From: an uncultured Clostridia bacterium
GTDB taxonomy: Bacteria; Bacillota; Clostridia; Christensenellales; Borkfalkiaceae
Assembly (NCBI GenBank): GCA_944341075.1
Contig: CALVLV010000002.1
Location: 53,973 to 117,972 of the forward strand
Direction: 5' to 3'
Length of the DNA: 64,000 nt
Below are positions 13,162 through 23,949 of the stretch, piece by piece (the first letter of the stretch is position 1; each line of letters starts with the position of its first letter). A program made the translations under genes and the position numbers. Below the pieces are notes generated by a model that saw nothing but the letters and a program-made list of their open reading frames with translations, did not search any database and was not told where the DNA came from.

Positions 13162-13309
13162 TATACCCGCCCCGCTTTCCTTTGTATAAACTTCGCAATA
13201 CTTTGTTGCGCTGTGCTTTTCTCGGGTCATTTACGTTTAAGTAAACTCCCCGTCGTAAATGCTCGCACGCCTTGTCTTGCTCGTTTCTTCAAAGGTTAAT
13301 CGAAGTAGG

Positions 13310-13495
13310 TCACGAAATTTTAGTTTTGGCTGAAAACTAAAATTTCCGTGATTTGAGAAACTAAGTTTCTCTTCGCGCGACTTTTAAGGGCCCTCGTTTA
13401 TATAGTCGCGCGAATTCACTTCCAGTGAGCTCGCTTACGCGACAAATTGAGTTGCGCTGGTGCAGGGAAACCCTGCTTGCGCCGTAAATTATTTC
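13310..13495 (+). repeat. structured non-coding element, copy A
   Basis: Successive stems: TCACG/CGTGA with long AT-rich extension (13310-13351); GAGAAAC/GTTTCTC (13355-13371); TTCGCGCGAC/GTCGCGCGAA (13372-13414) closing a 23-base loop that contains GCCCTC and TTATATA; and GCAGGG-AAA-CCCTGC (13462-13476). The right strand GTCGCG can also pair with CGCGAC at 13438-13443. Copy B (19996-20293) has the same order and loops but different stems, with both strands changed together. Confidence 0.65.
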
Positions 13496-13516
13496 AGAAA
13501 AATATTTCCTTAATCG

Positions 13517-13580
13517 TGCCTCCCTTGCCAAAGGGAGGTGGGTAGCACGAACTTTAGCGAGGGCTACCCGGTGGGATTTG
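13517..13580 (+). repeat. interspersed CCTCCC repeat, copy 1
   Basis: TGCCTCCCTTGCCAAAGGG starts the unit, an inner hairpin (GGGTAGC/GGCTACCC) follows, and it ends GGTGGGATTT. Copy 2 at 20334-20389 shares the ends but has a different inner hairpin. Similar units are, as far as I recall, common in genomes of gut Clostridia. Confidence 0.6.
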
Positions 13581-13620
13581 CGCCTGTAATTATCTTGCGT
13601 TTGTAAAAAAATATTCACAA

Positions 13621-13650
13621 AAATGCCGCGCAGGGCCCTGCGCGGCATTT
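13621..13650. terminator. perfect GC-rich palindromic hairpin
   Basis: AAATGCCGCGCAGGG and its exact complement CCCTGCGCGGCATTT. It could end any transcript from the non-coding region before the secA promoter, in either direction. Confidence 0.6.
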
Positions 13651-13730
13651 CAATGTTGTTCGTTAAAGGCGGGCAAAGGGGGCAAAATCCCTTCAAAATA
13701 CAAAATATTTCAATTTTTGCAAAAAAACGA

Positions 13731-13760
13731 TTGTACATATCGCCCTCAATGTAGTAAAAT
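13731..13760 (+). promoter_or_regulatory. likely secA promoter
   Basis: TTGTAC (13731-13736), 18 bases, TAAAAT (13755-13760). A second TATAAT at 13772-13777 lacks a good -35 box. Either leaves a leader of about 100 bases before secA. Confidence 0.5.
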
Positions 13761-13886
13761 ATTAAGCGGATTATAATGCTCGCGGTGCGCATGCGCAGGC
13801 GGGCGCGCACGCACGCTGGGCGCGCGGCGCAACTTAAAAACAGTACAATATTTATTCCTGATAGTTTTCAGGTGTAAGGAGTTTAA

Positions 13887-16800
13887 ATGGGACTTATCAG
13901 CTTTATACTCGGCTCCGACAGCAGGGCGGCGGTAAAAAAACTCAACAAGCTTGCCCTCAAGGTGGAGGAGCTGGAGCCTAAATATCAGCAGATGTCTGAC
14001 GAGGAGCTTAAAGATCAGACGCGCATCTTCAAAGAGCGCCTTGCAAACGGCGAAACGCTGGACGATATCATGCTTGACGCCTTTGCCGCTTTGAGGGAGG
14101 CCAGCTGGCGCGTTCTTAAAATGAAGCACTTCCACGTTCAGATAATGGGCGGCATCTGCCTGCACCAGGGCCGCATTGCGGAGATGCGCACGGGCGAAGG
14201 CAAAACGCTCGTCTCCACCCTTCCCGCATACCTCAACGCGCTCACCGGCAAGGGCGTTCACATAGTAACGGTAAACGACTACCTTGCCAAGCGCGACGCC
14301 GAATGGATGGGCAAGGTGCATAAGTTCATGGGCCTCACCGTGGGCGTAGTTGTGCCCGGCATGGACGACAAGCAGAAAAAGGAAGCTTATGCCTGCGACA
14401 TTATCTACGGCACCAATAACGAACTCGGCTTCGACTACCTGCGCGATAACTTAAAGCCCTCGATTTCCGCCATGGTGCAGCGCGAACTCAACTTCTGCAT
14501 CATAGACGAAGTCGACTCCATCTTAATAGACGAAGCGCGCACGCCCCTCATCATATCGGGCCGCGGCGGCGAAAGCTCAAAGCTGTATGAGGAGGTGGAC
14601 AGGTTCGTCCGCACCCTCACCGGCGGCTTCGACGACGACAAAAAGGACGCCGAAAAAAAGGCGCCCTCCAAGCGCAAAAAGGATCTCACCAAGGAGGAGC
14701 AGGAGGCCAACGACCGCCTTGCCGCCATACTTGAAGAGATGGAAAACTGGGACTATATAATCGACCGCAAGGAAAAGTCCGTCACCATAACCGAAAAGGG
14801 CGCGGAGAAGGCTGAACGCTTCTTCGGCATAGCCAACCTTGCCGATATAGAAAACGCCGACCTCAACCACCACATACAGCAGGCGCTCAAGGCGCACGAG
14901 CTGTTCAAGAGAGATGAAGACTACATCGTTTCAAACGACGGCGAGATACTCATAGTCGACGAATTCACCGGCCGCCTTATGCACGGCAGGCGCTATTCAG
15001 ACGGCCTTCACCAGGCCATAGAGGCCAAGGAACACGTAAAGGTGCGCAATGAAAACAAGACGCATGCCACCGTTACCTTCCAGAACTATTTCCGCCTTTA
15101 CAACAAGCTTTCGGGCATGACCGGTACGGCAAAGACCGAAGAGGCCGAATTCCGCACCATATATTCGCTTGACGTAGTTGAAATTCCCACAAACAAGCCC
15201 GTGCAGCGCAATGACTATGCCGACATGATCTACTCCACGGTAGAGGGCAAAAAGCGCGCCATAGTGAACGAAATTGTAGAGCGCCACGCCAAGGGCCAGC
15301 CCATACTTATAGGTACGGTAACTGTAGACAAGTCGGAGGAAATATCTCGTCTTCTTCGCCGCAACGGCGTAAAGCACAACATCCTCAACGCAAAGAACCA
15401 CGAGCGCGAAGCCGAAATAGTCGCCCAGGCGGGCAGGTACGGCGCCGTTACCATTGCAACCAACATGGCGGGCCGCGGCACCGATATCCTTTTGGGCGGC
15501 AACCCCGAATACCTCGCCAAAAAGCGCATGAGGGAGGAAGGGTACGAGCACGAGATGATAGAAGTGGCCATATCGTATGCAGACAGGCAGTTCACAGAAG
15601 AGGAACAAAAGGCGCGCGACCGGTATGCCGAGCTGTACGATATGTATAAAAAGGAGACCGACGCCGAAAAGGTAAAGGTAATAGAGGCGGGCGGCCTGTG
15701 CATAATAGGCACCGAGCGCCACGAAAGCCGCCGTATAGATAATCAGCTGCGCGGCCGTGCAGGCCGTCAGGGCGACCCCGGCGTTTCAATATTCTATATC
15801 TCGCTGGAAGACGACCTTGCAAAGCGCTTCGGCGGCGAAAAGATAAAGGCCATCTACGACGCCTTCAAGCTGGACGAAGACCAGTGCCTTCAGTCAAAAA
15901 TGCTTTCGCGCAGCATAGAAAACGCGCAGAAGGCTATAGAGGGCCGCAACTTTGCCATACGTAAGCGCACGCTGCAGTACGACGAAGTAATGAACGAACA
16001 GCGCAAGACCATCTACGGCGAGCGCATAAAGGTGCTCAAGGGCGAGGACGTGCACGAACAGATGCTCAAGTATATCCCCGACTATGTGGAAAAGGTGGTT
16101 AACGAGACGGTAAACACCGACGCCATGCCCGAAAAGTGGGACGAGGCCGCCCTCAACGAGGCGCTCCGCGTAAAGGTATACCCCGATGAATGCACATTCG
16201 AGATCACGCGTGAAATGCTTGAGCGCTGGGACTACGAAAAGGCCATAAAGAAGATCTCTAAAGAGGTCATAGCCGCATACGAACAGAAGATAATAAACAT
16301 TAAAAACGAAACTCACGGTCAGGTGGACTACCACCAGATAGAGCGCAACGAACTGCTGCGCAGCGTAGACCGCAACTGGATAGACCACATAGACGCAATG
16401 GACCAGCTCCGCAAGGGCATAGGCCTGCGCGGATATGCCCAGCAGGATCCCGTAATAGCCTACAAGCAGGAAGGCTACGAGATGTTCACCGAAATGATAG
16501 AGCGCGTTCAGACGACCACTATTTCCCGCCTTTTAAAGGGCAGGATAGTGCGCGTGCGCCCCGGCATGCCCATCCCCGGCAGGGCTCCCGCGGCACAGCA
16601 GCCCCGGCCTGCGCAGCAGCCCGCTCCACAGCAGCTGCCCGCACAGCCCTCCGCTGCCCGTTCGGAGGCTACCGAACCCGCTCCCGCTCAGCCCGAGGCA
16701 AAGGCAGAGGAAGCCGCACGCCAGACTCCCGCGGCACAGCAGCCCGCGGCGGCACCTGCTCCCGCTGCAAATATTCAGCGCGTGCCCATGCCCGGCAACC

Positions 16801-16955
16801 TTTCAATGAGGCCGCAGGACTTCACCCCCGACCCCACCGGCAAGCAGGCGCCCTTCGTGCGCACTAAAAAGAAAGAGCCCGGCCGCAACGATCCCTGCCC
16901 CTGCGGCAGCGGAAAAAAGTATAAGGACTGCTGCTACTGGAAGGATCACAGGTAA
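13887..16955 (+). CDS. secA: preprotein translocase ATPase SecA
   Basis: The motor that pushes unfolded secretory proteins through SecYEG. Walker A is MRTGEGKTL near residue 101; DEVDSILIDEARTPLIISG, the preprotein cross-linking region, NMAGRGTDILLGGNPEY and GTERHESRRIDNQLRGRAGRQGDPG (motif VI) follow in order. At 1022 residues it is longer than most Gram-positive SecAs (about 840): extra length comes from a charged, Lys-rich insertion around residues 250-275 and a Pro/Ala/Gln-rich linker (about 900-980) before the C-terminal zinc finger with Cys 1004, 1006, 1015 and 1016. That finger binds SecB or ribosomes in other bacteria. Start ATG follows AAGGAG. prfB is downstream, a common Gram-positive arrangement. 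Confidence 0.97.
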   Translation: MGLISFILGSDSRAAVKKLNKLALKVEELEPKYQQMSDEELKDQTRIFKERLANGETLDDIMLDAFAALREASWRVLKMKHFHVQIMGGICLHQGRIAEMRTGEGKTLVSTLPAYLNALTGKGVHIVTVNDYLAKRDAEWMGKVHKFMGLTVGVVVPGMDDKQKKEAYACDIIYGTNNELGFDYLRDNLKPSISAMVQRELNFCIIDEVDSILIDEARTPLIISGRGGESSKLYEEVDRFVRTLTGGFDDDKKDAEKKAPSKRKKDLTKEEQEANDRLAAILEEMENWDYIIDRKEKSVTITEKGAEKAERFFGIANLADIENADLNHHIQQALKAHELFKRDEDYIVSNDGEILIVDEFTGRLMHGRRYSDGLHQAIEAKEHVKVRNENKTHATVTFQNYFRLYNKLSGMTGTAKTEEAEFRTIYSLDVVEIPTNKPVQRNDYADMIYSTVEGKKRAIVNEIVERHAKGQPILIGTVTVDKSEEISRLLRRNGVKHNILNAKNHEREAEIVAQAGRYGAVTIATNMAGRGTDILLGGNPEYLAKKRMREEGYEHEMIEVAISYADRQFTEEEQKARDRYAELYDMYKKETDAEKVKVIEAGGLCIIGTERHESRRIDNQLRGRAGRQGDPGVSIFYISLEDDLAKRFGGEKIKAIYDAFKLDEDQCLQSKMLSRSIENAQKAIEGRNFAIRKRTLQYDEVMNEQRKTIYGERIKVLKGEDVHEQMLKYIPDYVEKVVNETVNTDAMPEKWDEAALNEALRVKVYPDECTFEITREMLERWDYEKAIKKISKEVIAAYEQKIINIKNETHGQVDYHQIERNELLRSVDRNWIDHIDAMDQLRKGIGLRGYAQQDPVIAYKQEGYEMFTEMIERVQTTTISRLLKGRIVRVRPGMPIPGRAPAAQQPRPAQQPAPQQLPAQPSAARSEATEPAPAQPEAKAEEAARQTPAAQQPAAAPAPAANIQRVPMPGNLSMRPQDFTPDPTGKQAPFVRTKKKEPGRNDPCPCGSGKKYKDCCYWKDHR

Positions 16956-16986
16956 TTCAAACTGAGCCGCGTATGTGCCGTTAATT

Positions 16987-17004
16987 GCGGCATATATGCG
17001 TGGC
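16987..17004 (+). repeat. copy of the GCGGCATATATGC motif
   Basis: GCGGCATATATGCGTGGC in the secA-prfB gap, nearly identical to the site at 9171. Confidence 0.6.
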
Positions 17005-17080
17005 AATAAGCAAATCTGGCAACGGCGGCAAAATTTTTTGCCCGCCCGATATAGCTAAACCATATTATTACAGAGATTTT

Positions 17081-18181
17081 ATGTTCAAAGCAGACGATTA
17101 CAGATTAAGACTGAAGGGCCTTTCGGAGACGCTCTCCGAGGCCAAATATGCCCTCGATATAGACAATATCGGCGAAAAGCTCAAACAGCTGCAGGCCGAA
17201 CAGGAAAAGCCCGAGGTGTGGAACGACCTTGAAAAGTCCAAGCACATCGGCAGGGAAATTTCTGTAATAGAGGGCAAGATAGCCGCATACAAAAAGGGCG
17301 AAAGCGCCCTTAAGGACGCGCAGGCGTTCGTAGACCTTATAGAGGAGGCCGACGACGAAAGCCTTGTGCCCGAGCTGGAAAAGATGATCTCTACGGCAGA
17401 GGCCGACATAGAGGAGATGCGCATAAAGGCGCTTTTAAAGGGCAAGTACGATTCAAACAACGCCATTTTAAGCCTGCATGCGGGCGCGGGCGGCACCGAG
17501 GCGTGCGACTGGACGCAGATGCTCTACCGCATGTACCAGCGCTACTGCGAAAAAGTCGGCTTCAAAGTCACCGAGCTCGACCGCGAGGACGGCGACGAGG
17601 CAGGCATCAAGAGCGTGAGCTTCAAGGTGGAGGGCGAAAACGCCTACGGCTTTTTAAAGGCTGAAAAGGGCGTGCACAGGCTGGTGCGCATCTCCCCGTT
17701 CGACAGCAACAAGCGCCGCCACACTTCTTTTGCCTCGCTCGAGGTAATGCCCGAGGTCGACGACGAGGGCGAAGTGGAGATACGCGACGAAGATATAAGG
17801 ATAGACGTATACCGCTCCTCCGGCGCGGGCGGCCAGAAGGTAAACAAGACCGAAACGGCCATACGCATAACGCACTTCCCCACGGGCATAGTCGTCACCT
17901 GCCAGAACGAGCGCAGCCAGCTTCAGAACAAGGCAATGGCCTTCCAGTATCTGCGCGCCAAGCTCATCGAGCGGCAGATCGCCGAGCGAGAGGCGGCCGA
18001 CGCCGAGCTGAAGGGCGAGATAAAAAAGATAGAGTGGGGCAGCCAGATACGCTCATATGTGTTCTGCCCGTATACCCTTGTAAAGGATCACCGCACAGGC
18101 TACGAAAATACCGATATCCAGGCCGTTATGGACGGCGATATCCAGGGCTTTATAATAGACTACCTTAAAAAAGCAGGCTGA
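17081..18181 (+). CDS. prfB: peptide chain release factor 2, without programmed frameshift
   Basis: RF2 (366 residues) releases nascent chains at UGA and UAA. The codon-recognition tripeptide SPF is in LVRISPFDSNKRRHTS and the peptidyl-transferase motif GGQ in SSGAGGQKVNKTETA. Start is ATG 17081, giving the usual N terminus; the frame is open further upstream but that part is not RF2-like. The autoregulatory +1 frameshift site (CTT TGA C near codon 25 in many bacteria) is absent: the equivalent position reads CTC GAT in one continuous frame, so RF2 level is not controlled that way here. Confidence 0.95.
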   Translation: MFKADDYRLRLKGLSETLSEAKYALDIDNIGEKLKQLQAEQEKPEVWNDLEKSKHIGREISVIEGKIAAYKKGESALKDAQAFVDLIEEADDESLVPELEKMISTAEADIEEMRIKALLKGKYDSNNAILSLHAGAGGTEACDWTQMLYRMYQRYCEKVGFKVTELDREDGDEAGIKSVSFKVEGENAYGFLKAEKGVHRLVRISPFDSNKRRHTSFASLEVMPEVDDEGEVEIRDEDIRIDVYRSSGAGGQKVNKTETAIRITHFPTGIVVTCQNERSQLQNKAMAFQYLRAKLIERQIAEREAADAELKGEIKKIEWGSQIRSYVFCPYTLVKDHRTGYENTDIQAVMDGDIQGFIIDYLKKAG

Positions 18182-18231
18182 TATCCTGTCTGCAGGCGCG
18201 GCAGAAAAGTGCCGCCTTGCAATCAATAGTT

Positions 18232-18248
18232 GTGCCATATATGCGGCC
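18232..18248 (+). repeat. variant copy of the CATATATG motif
   Basis: GTGCCATATATGCGGCC in the gap after prfB; same core, with the halves rearranged compared with the 9171 and 16987 copies and close to the site at 53335. Confidence 0.5.
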
Positions 18249-18316
18249 AAATTTAAAGTTTGCTTAAGTTTTGCGGAGTTTTCCGCCCAAAATATCATAC
18301 GGAGGGAATTATTTTT

Positions 18317-18778
18317 ATGGCGTCAAAAACAAACGTCGGCGGAAAGTGCATGGAACTTTCCCTCAAAGTAATGTCGCTCGGCGTGGGCATCAACAGTAAA
18401 AGGGGTGCGCAGGAGCTCTTCAGGGAGCTGTGCGCAAAGACCACCGAACTGGGCGCCGGCATCAGTGCCGTAAATTACCTGCCCACACGCTCTATGCGCG
18501 CACAGCAGGCGGTAGAGCTTGTAAAGTGCTGCCAGCAGGTAATATACCTTCTCAACCTCGCCCTGCGCGAAGGTTCGCTGGAGCAGTCGGGGCTTTCGGG
18601 CGCGCTCACGCTCGCCGTTGATATCGGCAACGAAATAAACAACTTCGTCATGGCATACGTGCCCGGCGTTGCCGCCGCCCAGCCTGAGGAGAAACCCGAA
18701 GAACAGCCCGAGGACGAGCAGCCCCGGCCCGACCCCGATCCCGACGGGTTCGACGCCCCCTACGACGGCACTCTTTAA
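18317..18778 (+). CDS. hypothetical protein, predicted helical bundle with acidic tail
   Basis: Not recognised with certainty. The 153-residue protein has a helical body to about residue 115 (helices around 10-25, 28-50, 58-82, 88-112), then a Pro/Glu/Asp-rich tail (PEEKPEEQPEDEQP) likely to be disordered. The pattern of an internal Ser/Ala-rich helix followed by VELVKCCQQVIYLLNLALREG is faintly like the four-helix-bundle (S23/Avd) family, but I could not confirm it. Start ATG follows GGAGGG at a good distance. It stands alone between prfB and tsaD on the same strand; no partner suggests a role. Confidence 0.7.
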   Translation: MASKTNVGGKCMELSLKVMSLGVGINSKRGAQELFRELCAKTTELGAGISAVNYLPTRSMRAQQAVELVKCCQQVIYLLNLALREGSLEQSGLSGALTLAVDIGNEINNFVMAYVPGVAAAQPEEKPEEQPEDEQPRPDPDPDGFDAPYDGTL

Positions 18779-18919
18779 GTTGTTTCCGCTACATAATATA
18801 CTTTGCCGCCTGTCTGCGGCAGTGCTTCAGGGCATATGCTTTGCGGCGGGTACAGTGCGGCGTTTTTTGCCGCCGTGTGCCGCGCTCAAGACACATTCCT
18901 TCTAAAAAATACAATTAAT

Positions 18920-18949
18920 GTGCGGCGCCGCGGCGTCGCACTTCGGTTT
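18920..18949 (+). terminator. GC-rich hairpin before tsaD
   Basis: GTGCGGCGCC and GGCGTCGCAC pair (one G-U) and are followed by TTCGGTTTT. It sits only a few bases before the tsaD start, so it may be a terminator of the upstream unit or part of the tsaD leader. Confidence 0.45.
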
Positions 18950-18954
18950 TATAT

Positions 18955-19989
18955 ATGTACGATATATCTGCGTTCAGCATAAAGTCCCAGCCCTTGATAC
19001 TCGGCATAGAGTCCAGCTGTGACGAAACTGCCTGCGCCGTGCTCCGCGGCAGAAAGATACTTTCAAACTGCATAATCTCCTCGGCGGCCGAACAGGCAAA
19101 ATACGGCGGAGTGGTGCCGGAAATAGCCTCGCGCATGCACACCGAGGCGGTGGACGAAGTCTGCAGAATGGCGCTTGAACAGGCCGCCGTGCGCCCGCAT
19201 GATATAGACTGCGTGGCGGCAACTTACGGCGCCGGGCTTTTGGGCGCTCTGCTCGTCGGGCTGTCGTTTGCCAAGGCTTTCGCCTATGCGCTCAACGTTC
19301 CATTCGTCGCCGTCAACCACATTCGCGGGCACATATCTGCCGCCTATCTCGACAAGCCCGACTTAAAGCCGCCGTTTATAACGCTGCTTGCAAGCGGTGG
19401 GCATACGGCGATACTGCTCACAGAATCTTTCACGCAGTTTAAGGTGCTTGCCGACACTTCTGACGACGCCGCTGGCGAGGCGTTCGATAAGTGCGCCCGC
19501 GTTCTCGGCCAGCCGTACCCCGGCGGGCCCTCGGTGCAAAAACTTGCTGCGGGCGGCAGGCCGGTAATAAATCTTCCCTCCGCGCTCGTCAAAAATTCAA
19601 CGTCAACGCGCTTTTCGTACAGCGGCCTCAAAACGGCGGTAATAAACACCGTGCACAACGCCGCACAGCGGGGCGAACAGCTCAATCTTGCAGACGTGGC
19701 CGCCTCGTTCCAGCGCGCCGCCATAGACCCGCTTGTAAAAAAGACGGTGGAATATGCTCAAAAGTACGGTATACGCACCGTAACGGCGGGCGGAGGGGTC
19801 ATAGCAAACGACTATCTGCGCTCCTCTCTGTCCGCACTGTGCGCCTCAAACGGCATAAATTTAGTCCTTCCCGAAAAGAAATTCTGCACGGATAACGCCG
19901 CCATGATAGCCTCTGAAGGGCTCAACCAATACATGGCGGGCAATTTTTCGGGGTTGGATATAAATGCCTGCGCCTCGATACCGTTATAA
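18955..19989 (+). CDS. tsaD: tRNA N6-adenosine threonylcarbamoyltransferase TsaD
   Basis: A 344-residue ASKHA-fold protein that transfers threonylcarbamoyl to A37 of ANN-decoding tRNAs together with TsaB and TsaE. Family marks: LGIESSCDETACAV near residue 18, the metal-binding NHIRGHISA (His-x3-His near residue 121), LLASGGHTAI and DDAAGEAFDKCARVLG, PYPGGPSV. The other subunits are not in the window. The ATG at 18955 has no clear Shine-Dalgarno sequence; the N terminus is about ten residues longer than usual, and a later start is possible. Confidence 0.95.
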   Translation: MYDISAFSIKSQPLILGIESSCDETACAVLRGRKILSNCIISSAAEQAKYGGVVPEIASRMHTEAVDEVCRMALEQAAVRPHDIDCVAATYGAGLLGALLVGLSFAKAFAYALNVPFVAVNHIRGHISAAYLDKPDLKPPFITLLASGGHTAILLTESFTQFKVLADTSDDAAGEAFDKCARVLGQPYPGGPSVQKLAAGGRPVINLPSALVKNSTSTRFSYSGLKTAVINTVHNAAQRGEQLNLADVAASFQRAAIDPLVKKTVEYAQKYGIRTVTAGGGVIANDYLRSSLSALCASNGINLVLPEKKFCTDNAAMIASEGLNQYMAGNFSGLDINACASIPL

Positions 19990-19995
19990 AGGGGT

Positions 19996-20293
19996 TCACA
20001 AAATTTGCCGCCTTGCGTGTCGGCAAATTTTCGTGATTTTTAGGGGCGCTGCCCCTCTTTGTGCAATCTTAAGTGCCCTCAATTATATAATTGCGCAAAT
20101 TCACCCTGCTGAGGCGCAGGTATGCGCAAATTGAGACGAGCGGCACGTTCCGTAGAACAGCGGACACCCGCTGTTCGTGTGCCGCGGAGAGACCGCAACA
20201 TGCCGAGCGTTAGCGTGAGGCGTTGCGGAGCCGACCAACGAGGCACGAGGCGAACCTGCTGCGGCGGGAAACCCGCCTTGCGACATTATTTAT
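19996..20293 (+). repeat. structured non-coding element, copy B (with extra hairpins)
   Basis: Stems in the same order as copy A: TCAC/GTGA extended by AAAATTTGCCG/CGGCAAATTTT (19996-20036); AGGGGC/GCCCCT (20042-20056); TTTGTGCAAT/ATTGCGCAAA (20058-20099) around a 22-base loop with GCCCTC and TTATATA; CCTGC/GCAGG (20104-20120); and GGCGGG-AAA-CCCGCC (20263-20277). An inserted part (about 20136-20252) adds GCGGCAC/GTGCCGC enclosing GAACAGCGG/CCGCTGTTC, and CCGCAAC/GTTGCGG. Confidence 0.65.
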
Positions 20294-20510: not shown

Positions 20511-20780
20511 ATAATTTAATATCAAAGGCTATCACGGAGGACAACCGCCCTTTCGCCAACCCTTTAAGAGAGCTTTCGGCAGGTGTAAGAAGGCAGGCGC
20601 GCGACGGGGATATCACCTCCCAGCTTATTTTCCCAAAGCGGGCGGGCTGAAAAAGCGCGCACGCCGCGTAAGAAAATACGGTTTCATAACCCGTTACAAG
20701 TTATGGCAAATAATAGTTTGTTTTGGTGGTTTACAAGCACTCGTTTTCGGTGTCCGAAATAACGGGGGCTTTATTTTTTT
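20511..20780 (+). ncRNA. T-box riboswitch, isoleucine-specific
   Basis: The leader contains AGAGAG (20567-20572) with the following GGTGTAAGAAGG of stem I. The specifier triplet is most likely ATC (Ile) followed by A at 20612-20615. The antiterminator is GTTTGT/ACAAGC (20716-20721 with 20733-20738) around a bulge holding TTTGGTGG, whose TGG(T) can pair with the tRNA acceptor end. The competing terminator is TCGTTTTCGG/CCGAAATAACG (20741-20764) with TTATTTTTTT. Uncharged tRNA-Ile would favour readthrough into ileS. The 3' strand lacks the usual ACCGCG. Confidence 0.85.
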
Positions 20781-20799: not shown

Positions 20800-23700
20800 A
20801 TGTATAAAAAAGTGGATACCGCCCTCGACTTTGTGGGCAGGGAGCAGGAAGTCATCGACTTCTGGAATCAAAACAACATCTTTGAAAAGTCTGTAAAGCA
20901 GAACGAGGGCGCTGAAGAGTTTTCCTTCTACGACGGCCCTCCCACTGCCAACGGCAAGCCGCATATCGGCCATATTTTAACGCGCGTAATGAAGGATATA
21001 ATCCCCCGCTACCAGACCATGAAGGGCAAGCACGTTTTGCGCAAGGCCGGATGGGATACGCACGGCCTGCCCGTAGAACTCGAAGTGGAAAAGATGCTCG
21101 GCATGGACGGCAAGCAGGACATTGAAAAGTACGGCATAGAGCCGTTCATAAAGCAGTGCAAGCAGTCTGTGTGGAAGTATAAGGGCGAGTGGGAGCGCAT
21201 GTCTGAGCGCGTAGGCTATTGGGCCGACATGAAGCACCCCTACGTCACCTACGACGACAACTATATCGAGTCGGAGTGGTGGGCCCTCAAGACCATGCAC
21301 CAGAAGGGCCTTTTATACAAGGGCCACAAAATAGTGCCCTATTGCCCCCGCTGCGGCACGGCGCTCTCCTCGCACGAGGTCGCTCAGGGCTATAAGCTGG
21401 TAAAGGAAAATTCGGTGGTCGCCCGCTTTAAGGTGAAGGGGGAAGAGGGCCGCTACATCCTTGCATGGACAACCACGCCGTGGACGCTGCCTTCAAACGT
21501 GGCGCTGTGCATGAACCCCAACGAGCCCTACGTTGAAATAGAGTCCGAAGGCACGCGCTATATACTTGCAAAGACGCTTGTTTCAAACTTCTTTGAAGAG
21601 TACACTTTAGTTGCAGAAAAGCCCGGCAGTGAGTGGGAGGGGCTGGAGTACGAGCCGCTGTTTGAAGAGACGGCCGCCGAAATAAAGCGCATATCCCCCG
21701 CAAACGCGCCCTTAAAGGCGCACTACGTTGTGTGCGATACCTATGTAACCATGGGCGACGGCACAGGCGTAGTTCACATTGCCCCCGCCTTCGGCGAGGA
21801 TGACTACAAGGTGGGCAAGCGCTATAACCTGCCCGTAGTTCAGCTTGTAAACGAGCGCGGCTGCTTCGATAAGCGCTTCCCCGCGGTAGACGGTGTGTTC
21901 GCCAAAAAGGCAGATAAGACGATAATAGACATGCTTGAAAAGCAGGGCAGCCTGTTCAGGGTGGTGCCCTTCGAACACGACTACCCGCATTGCTGGCGGT
22001 GCGATACGCCCCTTTTATACTACGCCCGCTCAAGCTGGTTCATTGAGGTCACCAAGGTCAAGGAGGACATAAAGGCTGCCAACCGCTCGGTGAACTGGAT
22101 GCCCGAGACCATAAAGGAAGGCCGCATGGGCAACTTCCTTGAAAACGTCATCGACTGGGGCCTCTCCCGCGACAGGTACTGGGGTACGCCCCTGCCCGTA
22201 TGGGTATGCCCCGACTGCGGTGAAATAGAGGTCATCGGTTCCAAGCAGGAGCTCAAGGAAAAGTGCGGCCTGCCCGCAGACAGCGACATAGAGCTGCACC
22301 GCCCCTATCTCGACAACCTCACCTGCACCTGCCCCAAGTGCGGCGGCAAAATGAAGCGCACGCCCGAAGTAATCGACTGCTGGTTCGACTCCGGCTCCAT
22401 GCCCTTCGCGCAGTATCACTACCCGTTTGAAAACGCCGATCTTTTCAAAGAGACCTTCCCCGCCGACTTCATCTCGGAGGCCGTCGACCAGACGCGCGGC
22501 TGGTTCTATACCCTTTTGGTGGTAAACACCATACTCTTCGGCGTGGCGCCCTTTAAAAACTGCATAGTTCTGGGGCACGTAAACGATAAAAACGGCATAA
22601 AGATGTCCAAGCACAAGGGCAACGTGGTCGATCCCTGGTCGGTGCTCGATAAGCAGGGTGCAGATGCCGTGCGCTGGTACTTCTATACCTCGTCGGCGCC
22701 CTGGCTGCCCTCAAGGTTCTACGAAGAGGCCGTGTCCGAAGCGCAGCGCAAATATCTGGGCACGCTGTGGAACACCTATGCGTTCTTTACGCTGTACGCC
22801 GAAATAGATAAGTACGACCCCTCAAAGTATTCGCTCAAAGACAGCAAGCTTTCGCTGATGGACAGGTGGATACTCTCCAGGCTCAACAGCCTTGTAAAAT
22901 TAGTGGATGAGCACCTCGCCCGCTACGAGATAACCGAAAGTTCGCGCGCCATTCAGGACTTTGCAGACGTGCTCTCCAACTGGTACGTGCGCCGCTGCCG
23001 CGACAGGTTCTGGGGCAGCGACATGACGGAGGACAAGGCCGCTGCATACACCACGCTGTATACCGTGCTTTTAACGCTTGCAAAGGTGACGGCGCCCTAT
23101 ACGCCCTTCGTTGCGGAGATGATGTACCGCAACCTTGTGCCGCAGTTCTTCAGTGACGCGCCCGAGTCCGTTCATCTCTGCCATTTCCCCGAGGCCGACG
23201 AAAGCCTTATAGACGGCGAGCTTGAGCGCGGCATGGATAGCGTTCTGAACATTGTTGTAAACGGCAGGTCGGCGCGCAACGCGGGCAACCTTAAAAACCG
23301 CCAGCCGCTTGCCGAAATGGTGGTGGTGTCTGAAAAGCCCATGAACCTTTCGGAAGAGGAAGTGCAGATAGTGCTTGAAGAGCTCAACGTAAAGCACATG
23401 ACCGTTGCAGACGACGCTTCAAAGTATATCAGGCATCGCCTCAAGCCCCAGCTCAAAACGCTCGGCCCCAAGTTCGGCAAGCAGCTGGGCGCCATATCAA
23501 AGTTCATAGCCTCGTGCAACGCAGAAGAGGTGCTTGCAGGCATCCGCAGCGAAGGCAGCTATACCATTCCCGACCTGGGAATAAAGCTCATGCTCGAAGA
23601 CCTGCAGGTGTTCTCCGAAAGCGCCAACGGCTATGTGGCGCAGTCAGATAAGGGCATAACCGTCGCCCTCTCTACGGCGCTCACCGAAGAGCTGCTGGAC

Positions 23701-23949
23701 GAGGGTGTGGAGCGCGAAATAATTTCCAAAATACAGAACATGCGCAAGGAGGCGGGTTTTGAAGTCACCGACCGCATAAACGTATATTTCACTGGTGAAG
23801 GCCGCGCCCTCAAGGTGCTGCGCGCCGCAGGCTTTGCCGGGGACGTGCTTGCCGACAGCGTGCAGCAAGGCCCCGCGCCGCAGGGTGCCTTTGTAAAGGA
23901 GCAGAACATAAACGGCGAAAAGGCAGTTATAGCGCTTTTGCGCAAATAA
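20800..23949 (+). CDS. ileS: isoleucyl-tRNA synthetase (type 2, IleS2-like)
   Basis: A class I aminoacyl-tRNA synthetase of 1049 residues. HIGH is at residues 55-58, KMSKH near residue 600, the editing (CP1) domain between them includes TTPWTLPSN, and the C-terminal part is the anticodon-binding region. The length and the DGPPTANGKPHIGHIL start resemble the eukaryote-like IleS2 group, which in other bacteria is less sensitive to mupirocin than IleS1. The zinc-like pairs CPDCG and CPKCGGKMKR are inside the CP1 region. Expression is controlled by the T-box upstream. Start ATG follows AAGGAG. Confidence 0.97.
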   Translation: MYKKVDTALDFVGREQEVIDFWNQNNIFEKSVKQNEGAEEFSFYDGPPTANGKPHIGHILTRVMKDIIPRYQTMKGKHVLRKAGWDTHGLPVELEVEKMLGMDGKQDIEKYGIEPFIKQCKQSVWKYKGEWERMSERVGYWADMKHPYVTYDDNYIESEWWALKTMHQKGLLYKGHKIVPYCPRCGTALSSHEVAQGYKLVKENSVVARFKVKGEEGRYILAWTTTPWTLPSNVALCMNPNEPYVEIESEGTRYILAKTLVSNFFEEYTLVAEKPGSEWEGLEYEPLFEETAAEIKRISPANAPLKAHYVVCDTYVTMGDGTGVVHIAPAFGEDDYKVGKRYNLPVVQLVNERGCFDKRFPAVDGVFAKKADKTIIDMLEKQGSLFRVVPFEHDYPHCWRCDTPLLYYARSSWFIEVTKVKEDIKAANRSVNWMPETIKEGRMGNFLENVIDWGLSRDRYWGTPLPVWVCPDCGEIEVIGSKQELKEKCGLPADSDIELHRPYLDNLTCTCPKCGGKMKRTPEVIDCWFDSGSMPFAQYHYPFENADLFKETFPADFISEAVDQTRGWFYTLLVVNTILFGVAPFKNCIVLGHVNDKNGIKMSKHKGNVVDPWSVLDKQGADAVRWYFYTSSAPWLPSRFYEEAVSEAQRKYLGTLWNTYAFFTLYAEIDKYDPSKYSLKDSKLSLMDRWILSRLNSLVKLVDEHLARYEITESSRAIQDFADVLSNWYVRRCRDRFWGSDMTEDKAAAYTTLYTVLLTLAKVTAPYTPFVAEMMYRNLVPQFFSDAPESVHLCHFPEADESLIDGELERGMDSVLNIVVNGRSARNAGNLKNRQPLAEMVVVSEKPMNLSEEEVQIVLEELNVKHMTVADDASKYIRHRLKPQLKTLGPKFGKQLGAISKFIASCNAEEVLAGIRSEGSYTIPDLGIKLMLEDLQVFSESANGYVAQSDKGITVALSTALTEELLDEGVEREIISKIQNMRKEAGFEVTDRINVYFTGEGRALKVLRAAGFAGDVLADSVQQGPAPQGAFVKEQNINGEKAVIALLRK

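Follow-up and report, generated by a model that had tools for sequence, protein, structure and literature searches.

An intergenic repeat family of gut Clostridia with five hairpins and a covarying linker that may act as a third strand

Results

The window, i.e. the whole stretch of 64,000 nucleotides that was analysed, contains two copies, A and B, of an element of about 200 nt, which carries no gene, lies between genes and consists of five hairpins. Copy A precedes the open reading frame (ORF) 13887-16955 and copy B the ORF 20800-23949; judging from their own sequences, we take these to be secA and ileS, respectively. The features of the two copies are:

13308..13507, plus strand: copy A, whole element with five hairpins and an A/T-rich tail (model match 1-201 of 201, 217.4 bits; copy A is itself a member of the model)
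13310..13351, plus strand: copy A hairpin 1, TCACGAAATTTT...TTTCCGTGA with loop GGCTG (sequence; family-wide double changes in 13 of 14 pairs)
13355..13371, plus strand: copy A hairpin 2, GAGAAACTAAGTTTCTC, the 5' arm being a purine tract family-wide; proposed triplex duplex (sequence, family alignment)
13372..13414, plus strand: copy A hairpin 3 with a large conserved loop (sequence, family alignment)
13415..13429, plus strand: copy A linker TTCACTTCCAGTGAG (sequence)
13417-13421, plus strand: copy A covarying, putative third strand of hairpin 2, CACTT (sequence and code)
13430..13443, plus strand: copy A hairpin 4, CTCGCTTACGCGAC (sequence, family alignment)
13454..13482, plus strand: copy A hairpin 5; loop AAA, outer stem GCGC/GCGC (sequence, family alignment)
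19994..20284, plus strand: copy B, whole element including an inserted foreign repeat (model match 19994-20175, 132.1 bits, E 4.3e-32; hairpin-5 remnant 20258-20284 by reading)
19996..20036, plus strand: copy B hairpin 1, starting six bases past the end of the upstream ORF 18955-19989 (sequence, ORF list)
20041..20057, plus strand: copy B hairpin 2, TAGGGGCGCTGCCCCTC, outermost T-C unpaired (sequence, model match)
20058..20099, plus strand: copy B hairpin 3 (sequence, model match)
20100..20113, plus strand: copy B linker TTCACCCTGCTGAG (sequence)
20102-20106, plus strand: copy B putative third strand, CACCC (sequence, alignment row, code)
20114..20127, plus strand: copy B hairpin 4, GCGCAGGTATGCGC (sequence)
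20136..20257, plus strand: unrelated dispersed repeat within copy B, not part of the element (12 matches in its own genome, itself included)
20263..20277, plus strand: copy B hairpin 5 inner stem, GGCGGG-AAA-CCCGCC (sequence)

A first-pass annotation of this DNA had described A and B as diverged copies of one structured element with compensatory stem changes. The arms of hairpin 3, TTCGCGCGAC (13372-13381) and GTCGCGCGAA (13405-13414) in copy A, TTTGTGCAAT (20058-20067) and ATTGCGCAAA (20090-20099) in copy B, were read directly as it had given them: between A and B both sides are exchanged at pairs 3, 8 and 10, pair 5 becomes T·G, and the loops are alike at about 18 of 22 positions. Likewise, the AAA-loop hairpin changes from GCAGGG/CCCTGC (13462-13476) to GGCGGG/CCCGCC (20263-20277). 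That this relationship is not due to chance was confirmed by a covariance model of 30 copies, among them A but not B: a scan of the window recovered both and, for E-values up to 1, only a single further match (E 0.41). Copy B had been taken to extend to 20293; the element is real, but its extra length stems from the separate repeat 20136-20257, which interrupts the element after the hairpin-4 linker and ahead of the AAA hairpin and has one other full-length, identical match in this genome.

Both copies are real, but they are not just a pair: on the evidence of sequence comparison, A and B belong to a large repeat family of uncultured gut Clostridia. The search of the own and related genomes, which had been suggested in the annotation, yielded many further copies. 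In the own genome there are 48 matches at E<=1 (copy A counted) and at least 40 copies. Of 61 sampled genomes of the genus, which is inferred to be Candidatus Coproplasma, 54 contain the family and 7 do not; at least 40 copies are present in 7 of the 61. Two broader draws, of 200 genomes at order level and 299 at phylum level, with few candidates scored per genome, showed it only within the same taxonomic family. Carriage by phages or plasmids was rejected: no match resulted from a search of viral_contigs with one exact pattern or from blastn comparisons of copy A with phages and with plasmids, and we did not find this repeat family described in the published literature. Its dispersed, partly tandem and mobile-looking nature had been missed in the first-pass annotation.

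The modules are separable: at 2 of 4 loci in a sister genus, the element is present in a short form made up of hairpins 1, 4 and 5, and in some copies other repeats interrupt modules or take their place. As to vertical inheritance at orthologous places, some copies have neighbouring genes in common; several of these pairs differ by whole modules and others are alike, so that exchange, repeated insertion and descent cannot be separated. Copies occur in both orientations relative to the neighbouring ORFs, and a tally of 103 of 116 places, in which tandem units and one place fetched twice are included, gave no clear orientation bias relative to the flanking ORFs (++ 41, -- 30). Note that a lagging-strand mechanism might give such a bias; its absence in clear form was counted against the single-stranded DNA explanation discussed below.

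In a sequence-only MAFFT alignment of 30 copies, double changes were found in 30 of 36 predicted pairs. An alignment of 116 matches, fitted to the covariance model, has them in 43 of 46 pairs, and 96.4% of its helix cells are paired; 1135 double-change cells were observed versus 325.6 in shuffles, a number that none of the 500 shuffles reached, and the helix signal collapses when the register is slid by 1-3 columns. As far as alignments can demonstrate it, the five hairpins are kept by compensatory change. The finding that would have refuted the first-pass annotation, namely many copies without supported covariation, was not made: the copies are many and their covariation is very strong. Its stem argument is not decisive alone, because template-switch correction could yield compensatory arms without selection. 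Neutral palindromic repeats, whose arms are kept identical by such (quasi-palindrome) correction at replication and not by selection on a fold, predict Watson-Crick-only stems, G·T about as rare as A·C and a fast stem turnover, much as observed, but they do not explain the conserved linkers TTCAC and AAATTG or the purine bias of one hairpin-2 arm. In 176 copies, the purine share at positions 2-6 of the 5' arm of hairpin 2 is 87-100%; at single arm positions of hairpins 3 and 4 it ranges from 0 to 95%.

A pseudoknot between the hairpin-3 loop and the linker following hairpin 4 looked good in copy B and in L025; it is absent from the 110 best column pairs and was rejected. For a kissing interaction between the loops of hairpins 1 and 3 there is a weak signal, the mean longest complementary run being 3.17 versus 2.93 in shuffles (maximum of 300 shuffles, 3.04).

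The covariation that bears on neutral repeats reaches beyond the stems: the bases of the linker 3' of hairpin 3 follow the hairpin-2 pairs in parallel register, as the following comparisons of copies establish. In a ranking by corrected mutual information, for which 108 of the 116 aligned matches were used (gapped or duplicate rows were left out), the column pair 52-114 is 10th and lies above 37 of 46 helix pairs. The tally of linker letters comprises 176 copies, 10 of 186 distinct copies having been omitted for lack of an intact hairpin 2 or linker. At pair 2, A-T goes with A in 130 copies and G-C with C in 32 (other, 14); at pair 4, G-C goes with C in 100, A-T with T in 44 and C-G with A in 18 (other, 14); at pair 5, G-C goes with C in 96 and A-T with T in 66 (other, 14). 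For pairs 2, 4 and 5, mutual information peaks on the parallel diagonal (0.51, 0.99 and 0.63 bits); pair 6 is off the diagonal, with 0.10 bits there and its largest value, 0.62, elsewhere. The code is obeyed in 489 of 525 cells (3 of 528 were dropped, their letter being outside the code table), compared to a mean of 284 and a maximum of 320 in 1000 shuffles. On a tree built without the hairpin-2 and linker columns tested, both sides changed on the same branch 14, 30 and 16 times at pairs 2, 4 and 5, and 13, 29 and 16 of these changes led to the code letter. Copy A obeys the code at all three pairs (A with A at pair 2, A with T at pairs 4 and 5); from A to B, pairs 4 and 5 of hairpin 2 change from A-T to G-C jointly with TT to CC in the linker.

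Ten letter combinations of hairpin 2 and linker occur, each concordant in 3 to 50 of the 176 copies; in two of them, GGA (3 of 8 concordant) and GGG (3 of 7), departures exceed agreements. Altogether 34 copies depart from the code at one or more of the three positions, among them the TGAGGGC-type copies L104:1003, L189 and L193, which fit with the register shifted by one. A per-genome breakdown covers 146 of the 176 copies, and among 12 copies without a mapped genome only 25 of 36 cells obey the code. A-T takes A at pair 2 (132 of the 133 copies whose 5' arm has A there) and T at pairs 4 and 5 (44 of 47 and 66 of 69); this position rule is not demanded by simple triplex chemistry.

The covariation between linker and hairpin 2 is not explicable by correction within hairpins, and it closes the gap left by the template-switch explanation. 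Neutral repeats have no means of tying the linker to a stem on the far side of hairpin 3; they are largely contradicted by this result, and we consider them very improbable. The first-pass claim of selection on a folded RNA or single-stranded DNA, as opposed to a decaying repeat, is thereby supported.

The third strand is parallel on the plus strand and hence antiparallel on the minus strand. Of 704 triples, 642 follow the purine motif if the minus strand is read (661 with T·C-G added; shuffled maximum, 484), and 505 follow the pyrimidine motif if the plus strand is read. We infer that the tracking reflects an intrastrand triple helix, in which the linker would serve hairpin 2 as its third strand; no experiment has demonstrated triplex formation. 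The alternative is a folded RNA of the plus strand, arising either by transcription from the preceding gene or independently; with the five hairpins and a pyrimidine triple helix in the major groove (U·A-U, C+·G-C), it would act as an untranslated-region element. All helices and the parallel third strand are compatible with the plus strand, and the exchanges at pairs 4 and 5 are mostly between U·A-U and C+·G-C, but the A·A-U of pair 2 (130 copies) and the A·C-G of pair 4 (18 copies) are not pyrimidine-motif triples. Where a neighbouring ORF points at the element (65 places), the distance from its stop codon to the start of hairpin 1 is -1 to 8 nt in 39 cases, as might suit a transcribed element; however, the ORF on the hairpin-1 side points away in 38 of 103 counted places, where the element would lie antisense in a leader. 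The RNA folding z-score of copy A is -5.8, whereas Rfam 15 gave no match in the window at the gathering threshold.

In the helices of functional RNAs, G·U is tolerated far above A·C, and the element does not meet this criterion: G·T makes up 1.05% and A·C 0.55% of its helix cells (50 vs 26 counts), compared to 9.0% and 0.5% in RNase P helices from 28 genomes of the same genus. The comparison was restricted to pairs that are standard in at least 80% of the sequences. RNase P was found in 29 of 41 genomes, and one truncated sequence was left out; a single RNA is a narrow yardstick, but tRNA was not usable for calibration, as 218 of 221 records lack it. G·T is still somewhat above A·C, in hairpin 1 alone 27 vs 6. 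The near-absent G·T and the triplex base code, which fits better as a purine motif on the minus strand, point to single-stranded DNA without proving it; we regard single-stranded DNA as the most likely material of the selected fold, and the RNA alternative appears unlikely to us. Purine-motif triplexes are said not to form in RNA (PMC4666352).

No empty site was demonstrated, so that movement is inferred from the distribution. By inspection, the element lacks the terminal inverted repeats of a MITE, the consensus ends GTTCAC and TTATTTTAAAA not being mutual inverted repeats. The distribution of three candidate mobiliser genes across the genus genomes does not support mobilisation by any of them: Y1 transposase occurs in 18 of 61, but in only 1 of the 7 with at least 40 copies; reverse transcriptase in 25 of 61 and in 3 of those 7; and integron integrase above the cut-off in none of the 61. 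Sub-threshold tyrosine-recombinase matches are found in 59 of 61 genomes and likewise in 14 of 14 control genomes. The Y1 result bears on the possibility that the element is non-autonomous, of the IS200/IS605 or REP type, and that a Y1 (HUH) transposase cuts its folded DNA end: the own genome has no Y1 match, although the assemblies are incomplete and a lost or unassembled source is not excluded. IS608 offers a precedent in its single-stranded DNA hairpin ends, which form base triplets with the flanking strand, but its guide-target pairs A16:T-3 and A17:T-4 are antiparallel and the guide lies 5' of the hairpin (PMC5934647), whereas here the third strand is parallel to a paired stem. We rate this possibility as quite improbable.

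Discussion

Whether cells use and select DNA triplexes is an old question, which, as we see it, has mostly been argued from motif counts. Here, the natural variants constitute a ready-made compensatory experiment, in which hairpin 2 and linker change jointly (176 copies, ten combinations). With moderate confidence, we interpret A and B as copies of a gene-free, mobile-looking intergenic repeat of about 200 nt, which would be selected as a folded single strand, most likely a DNA strand. Read along the minus strand, the third strand would come first, followed by hairpin 3, then by the purine arm and finally by the pyrimidine arm; the triples G·G-C, A·A-T, T·A-T and T·C-G would make this a purine motif. 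We infer that the fold forms when the strand is exposed during replication, transcription, repair or transfer, and that an unidentified factor recognises it during copying or movement of the element. The hairpins may hold the triplex and the conserved linkers in position, and movement together with ectopic recombination would lead to intergenic spread, tandem growth and exchange of modules between copies. The more specific proposal, a mobile DNA element recognised via a single-strand tertiary fold that contains an intrastrand purine-motif triplex, the third strand being assigned by covariation, is tentative and falls somewhat short of an even chance; neither mobiliser nor read-out has been identified. 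If it is true, a natural DNA triple helix has been detected through comparative sequence analysis. Such a triplex becomes directly testable by swap and rescue, and an abundant repeat family that fills intergenic regions of a gut genus has been defined.

Among known systems, the attC sites of integrons are folded single-stranded DNA hairpins of the bottom strand that are recognised by structure; anatomically, an attC site is one imperfect palindrome. The element resembles them as folded single-stranded DNA, but has five hairpins and a triplex code, and no integron integrase above the cut-off accompanies it in the 61 genus genomes. BOX elements of streptococci are gene-free, modular, interspersed and hairpin-forming, with many copies per genome (PMC3049150). 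The element shares these properties with BOX and with RUP, SPRITE and ERIC-like repeats, and meets both BOX-like criteria, i.e. many dispersed gene-free copies and separable modules. It differs from BOX in its length of about 200 nt, its five hairpins, its 43 of 46 double-changed pairs, its covarying third strand and in having been seen only in one Clostridia family; the BOX paper (PMC3049150) never uses the word 'compensatory' in its main text.

The intrastrand triplex repeats PIT, BoxC and TM-ECO (Holder et al. 2015, PMC4666352; Hoyne et al. 2000, as reported there) are likewise intergenic and dispersed without strand bias, and have a purine-motif three-strand fold on one DNA strand. The minus-strand order of the element corresponds to PIT class I, and the criteria of a purine arm in a Watson-Crick duplex and of a third strand with matching code and polarity are met. 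In contrast, the short-loop criterion is not: the PIT scans allow loops of 1-6 nt (0-10 nt in an earlier scan; PMC4666352), whereas in the element the whole of hairpin 3 (median 43 nt) separates the third strand from the duplex. The best-studied PIT motif is short (37 nt), nearly invariant and of class II (PMC4666352); in the element, the third-strand bases covary with the duplex inside a five-hairpin unit. Judged by these analogies, the element is akin to BOX-type and intrastrand-triplex repeats, yet is a differing variant.

The element and its copies in the window

The element under study is a gene-free repeat of about 200 nt with five hairpins. Two copies and two neighbouring features were located:

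13308-13507 (+): copy A, before secA
19994-20284 (+): copy B, before ileS
20136-20257: a different dispersed repeat interrupting copy B (12 matches in the same genome, itself counted)
20522-20719 (+): T-box leader 5' of ileS, ordinary but diverged (48.9 bits, under the Rfam gathering score of 93)

Insert-like sequence resembling 20136-20257 likewise breaks up element copies at two other loci (L013 and L024).

The first-pass annotation had claimed that copies A and B differ by compensatory stem changes. Direct reading of both copies confirmed the stems and loops as described; hairpin 3 differs by three double changes plus one T·G, and the AAA-loop hairpin is altered between the copies as described. 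Both were also recovered by R1, a covariance model whose 30 sequence-aligned members include copy A and exclude copy B: the scores are 217.4 bits for A and 132.1 bits for B, and the third-best match in the window has an E-value of 0.41.

Covariation of the hairpins

In the sequence alignment of the 30 copies, RNAalifold gave double changes in 30 of 36 pairs. The alignment fitted to R1 (115 distinct rows) is biased towards the model, a bias of which the sequence alignment is free; here 96.4% of cells are paired and 43 of 46 pairs contain double changes. A slide by one column cuts pairing to 42.0 or 38.4%. Double-change cells number 1135 versus 325.6 (sd 12.9) after shuffling, and none of 500 shuffles came as high as 1135. 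The DNA fold of the copy A minus strand has a z-score of -8.6, the RNA fold of the plus strand one of -5.8. As far as comparative evidence can do so, these data establish the hairpins.

Coupling of hairpin 2 and the linker

Among 108 distinct copies, the top non-helix pairs by corrected mutual information link hairpin 2 with the linker after hairpin 3, named here the third strand. Alignment columns 52-114 and 62-114 occupy ranks 10 and 11, after nine helix pairs; columns 64-112 and 50-112 couple the same parts lower in the list. The resulting code, from hairpin-2 pair to linker letter, is listed below.

Linker letters accompanying hairpin-2 pairs in 176 copies with ungapped segments (212 matches gave 186 distinct copies, of which 10 lacked intact parts and were left out)
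Pair 2: A-T to A, 130; G-C to C, 32; other, 14
Pair 4: G-C to C, 100; A-T to T, 44; C-G to A, 18; other, 14
Pair 5: G-C to C, 96; A-T to T, 66; other, 14

Pair 3 hardly varies in these copies, and no code governs pair 6. Hairpin 2 and linker are in parallel register: when mutual information is tabulated for hairpin-2 against linker positions, pairs 2, 4 and 5 peak on the diagonal (0.51, 0.99 and 0.63 bits), and the peak of pair 6 falls off it. The code is obeyed in 489 of 525 cells (mean 284, maximum 320 in 1000 shuffles), and ten letter combinations are each concordant in at least 3 copies. Departures at one or more positions occur in 34 of the 176 copies; discordant copies outnumber concordant ones in GGA (3 of 8 agree) and GGG (3 of 7). 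Concordance is 99 of 102 cells in the window's own genome (34 copies) and merely 25 of 36 in copies from unmapped genomes (12 copies).

Branch changes were counted on a tree built from other parts of the element, which is only approximate because copies exchange modules. For pairs 2, 4 and 5, joint changes of hairpin 2 and linker on a single branch numbered 14, 30 and 16, of which 13, 29 and 16 reached the code letter; hairpin 2 changed alone 10, 10 and 13 times and the linker alone 5, 11 and 16 times. We regard the coupling as demonstrated at the level of sequence.

Columns 118 and 123, flanking UGAG-like bases right before hairpin 4, exchange without exception: C-G in 64 of the 108 copies, G-C in the other 44.

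Strand and nucleic acid

The first-pass annotation had argued for selection on a folded RNA or single-stranded DNA. Our committed reading is that the repeat is mobile and has been selected for folding as single-stranded DNA, in a fold that would hold an intrastrand triplex and be recognised by an unknown factor; triplex, DNA nature, minus strand, recognition and movement are all inferred. If the linker of the plus strand is read as a third strand of the pyrimidine motif, canonical triples number 505 of 704 over pairs 2-5 (shuffled maximum 364). On the minus strand, where the third strand would be antiparallel and of the purine motif, 642 of 704 fit (shuffled maximum 484), or 661 (shuffled maximum 492) if T·C-G, which is accepted in this motif, is added. 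Part of this advantage is permissiveness, since the purine code accepts more letters; compared with the shuffled mean, the purine motif gains 189 cells and the pyrimidine motif 167. The purine motif, in which an antiparallel third strand makes the triples G·G-C and A(T)·A-T, is described as unable to form in RNA (PMC4666352).

A separate line of evidence comes from mismatches: in the element's helices G·T makes up 1.05% and A·C 0.55%, versus 9.0% and 0.5% in RNase P (28 genus genomes), a narrow yardstick as it is one RNA. In hairpin 1, G·T exceeds A·C by 27 to 6.

Family size and range

The own genome (1.87 Mb) contains 48 matches to copy A at E ≤ 1, copy A counted. With stricter filters and at most 40 candidates per genome scored, R1 detected the element in 54 of 61 sampled genus genomes, with at least 40 copies in 7, and not in the other 7. 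An order-level draw of 200 genomes (12 candidates scored in each) gave 10 with matches. Six of these belong to the genus; the remaining four, from a sister genus within its family, matched weakly (best E 2.5e-10 to 4.2e-4); three further genomes of that family in this draw had no R1 match. A phylum-level draw of 299 genomes (8 candidates scored in each) added no R1 match beyond the own genome. An exact hairpin-5-region pattern found 39 stretches in a named genome collection, none of them outside two Candidatus Coproplasma genomes and Clostridia metagenome genomes, from which we infer that the genus is Coproplasma. The pattern matched no viral contigs, and blastn with copy A matched nothing in phage and plasmid collections. 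The comparisons establish a family of repeats, as judged from sequence. Elements lie near contig ends in two genomes (G059, contigs C14, C30, C86 and C94; G045, contig C31), and copy numbers from such assemblies may therefore be underestimates.

Two of the four sister-genus loci have a shorter form, hairpins 1, 4 and 5; the form of the remaining two is less evident. Short elements opening with a hairpin-1-like hairpin (TCACGAAAAATCTTTTTGC...) were seen at three loci (L016 downstream of 1651, L003, L105), the first passing to a hairpin-5-like end; they are perhaps the compact relative also met in the sister genus.

Genomic arrangement and search for a mobiliser

By crude ORF calls, without a copy-by-copy test, the copies appear intergenic. 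Both orientations occur: for 103 of 116 places, the hairpin-1-side and hairpin-5-side ORFs are ++ in 41, -- in 30, +- in 24 and -+ in 8. In 65 places the hairpin-1-side ORF points towards the element, and in 39 of these its stop codon is found at a distance of -1 to 8 nt. Head-to-tail tandem copies are present at six loci (L104, L031, L122, L127, L095, L073); two copies, L122:432 and L073:1698, look like chimeras, with hairpin 3 disrupted and the third-strand code along with it. At locus L018 (983-1564), about 400 bp with apparently inverted ends (AAGCCG.GTGCTAATAG) sit inside the hairpin-3 loop and look like a MITE-like insertion into the element.

In the 61 genus genomes, which are incomplete, Y1 transposase occurs in 18 but in only 1 of the 7 with at least 40 copies, integron integrase above the cut-off in none, and reverse transcriptase in 25, including 3 of those 7. 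No mobiliser was found among these three; other recombinases were outside the search. Reverse transcriptase is present in 6 of 7 element-free genomes versus 19 of 54 with the element (small numbers, relatedness uncontrolled).

Comparison with known systems

With most subscription journals outside coverage, we found no literature pairing an intrastrand triplex with covariation and nothing that looked related on repeats in Coproplasma. The closest structural kin identified are intrastrand triplex repeats (PMC4666352). The scans described there permit loops from 1 to 6 nt long, or from 0 to 10 nt in an earlier scan, so that they would overlook a third strand set apart by a hairpin of 43 nt. BOX elements (PMC3049150) have modularity and dispersal in common with the element. 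In IS608, base triplets join guide, target and hairpin flank; by their numbering, its guide-target pairs are antiparallel (PMC5934647), whereas the register of the element is parallel.
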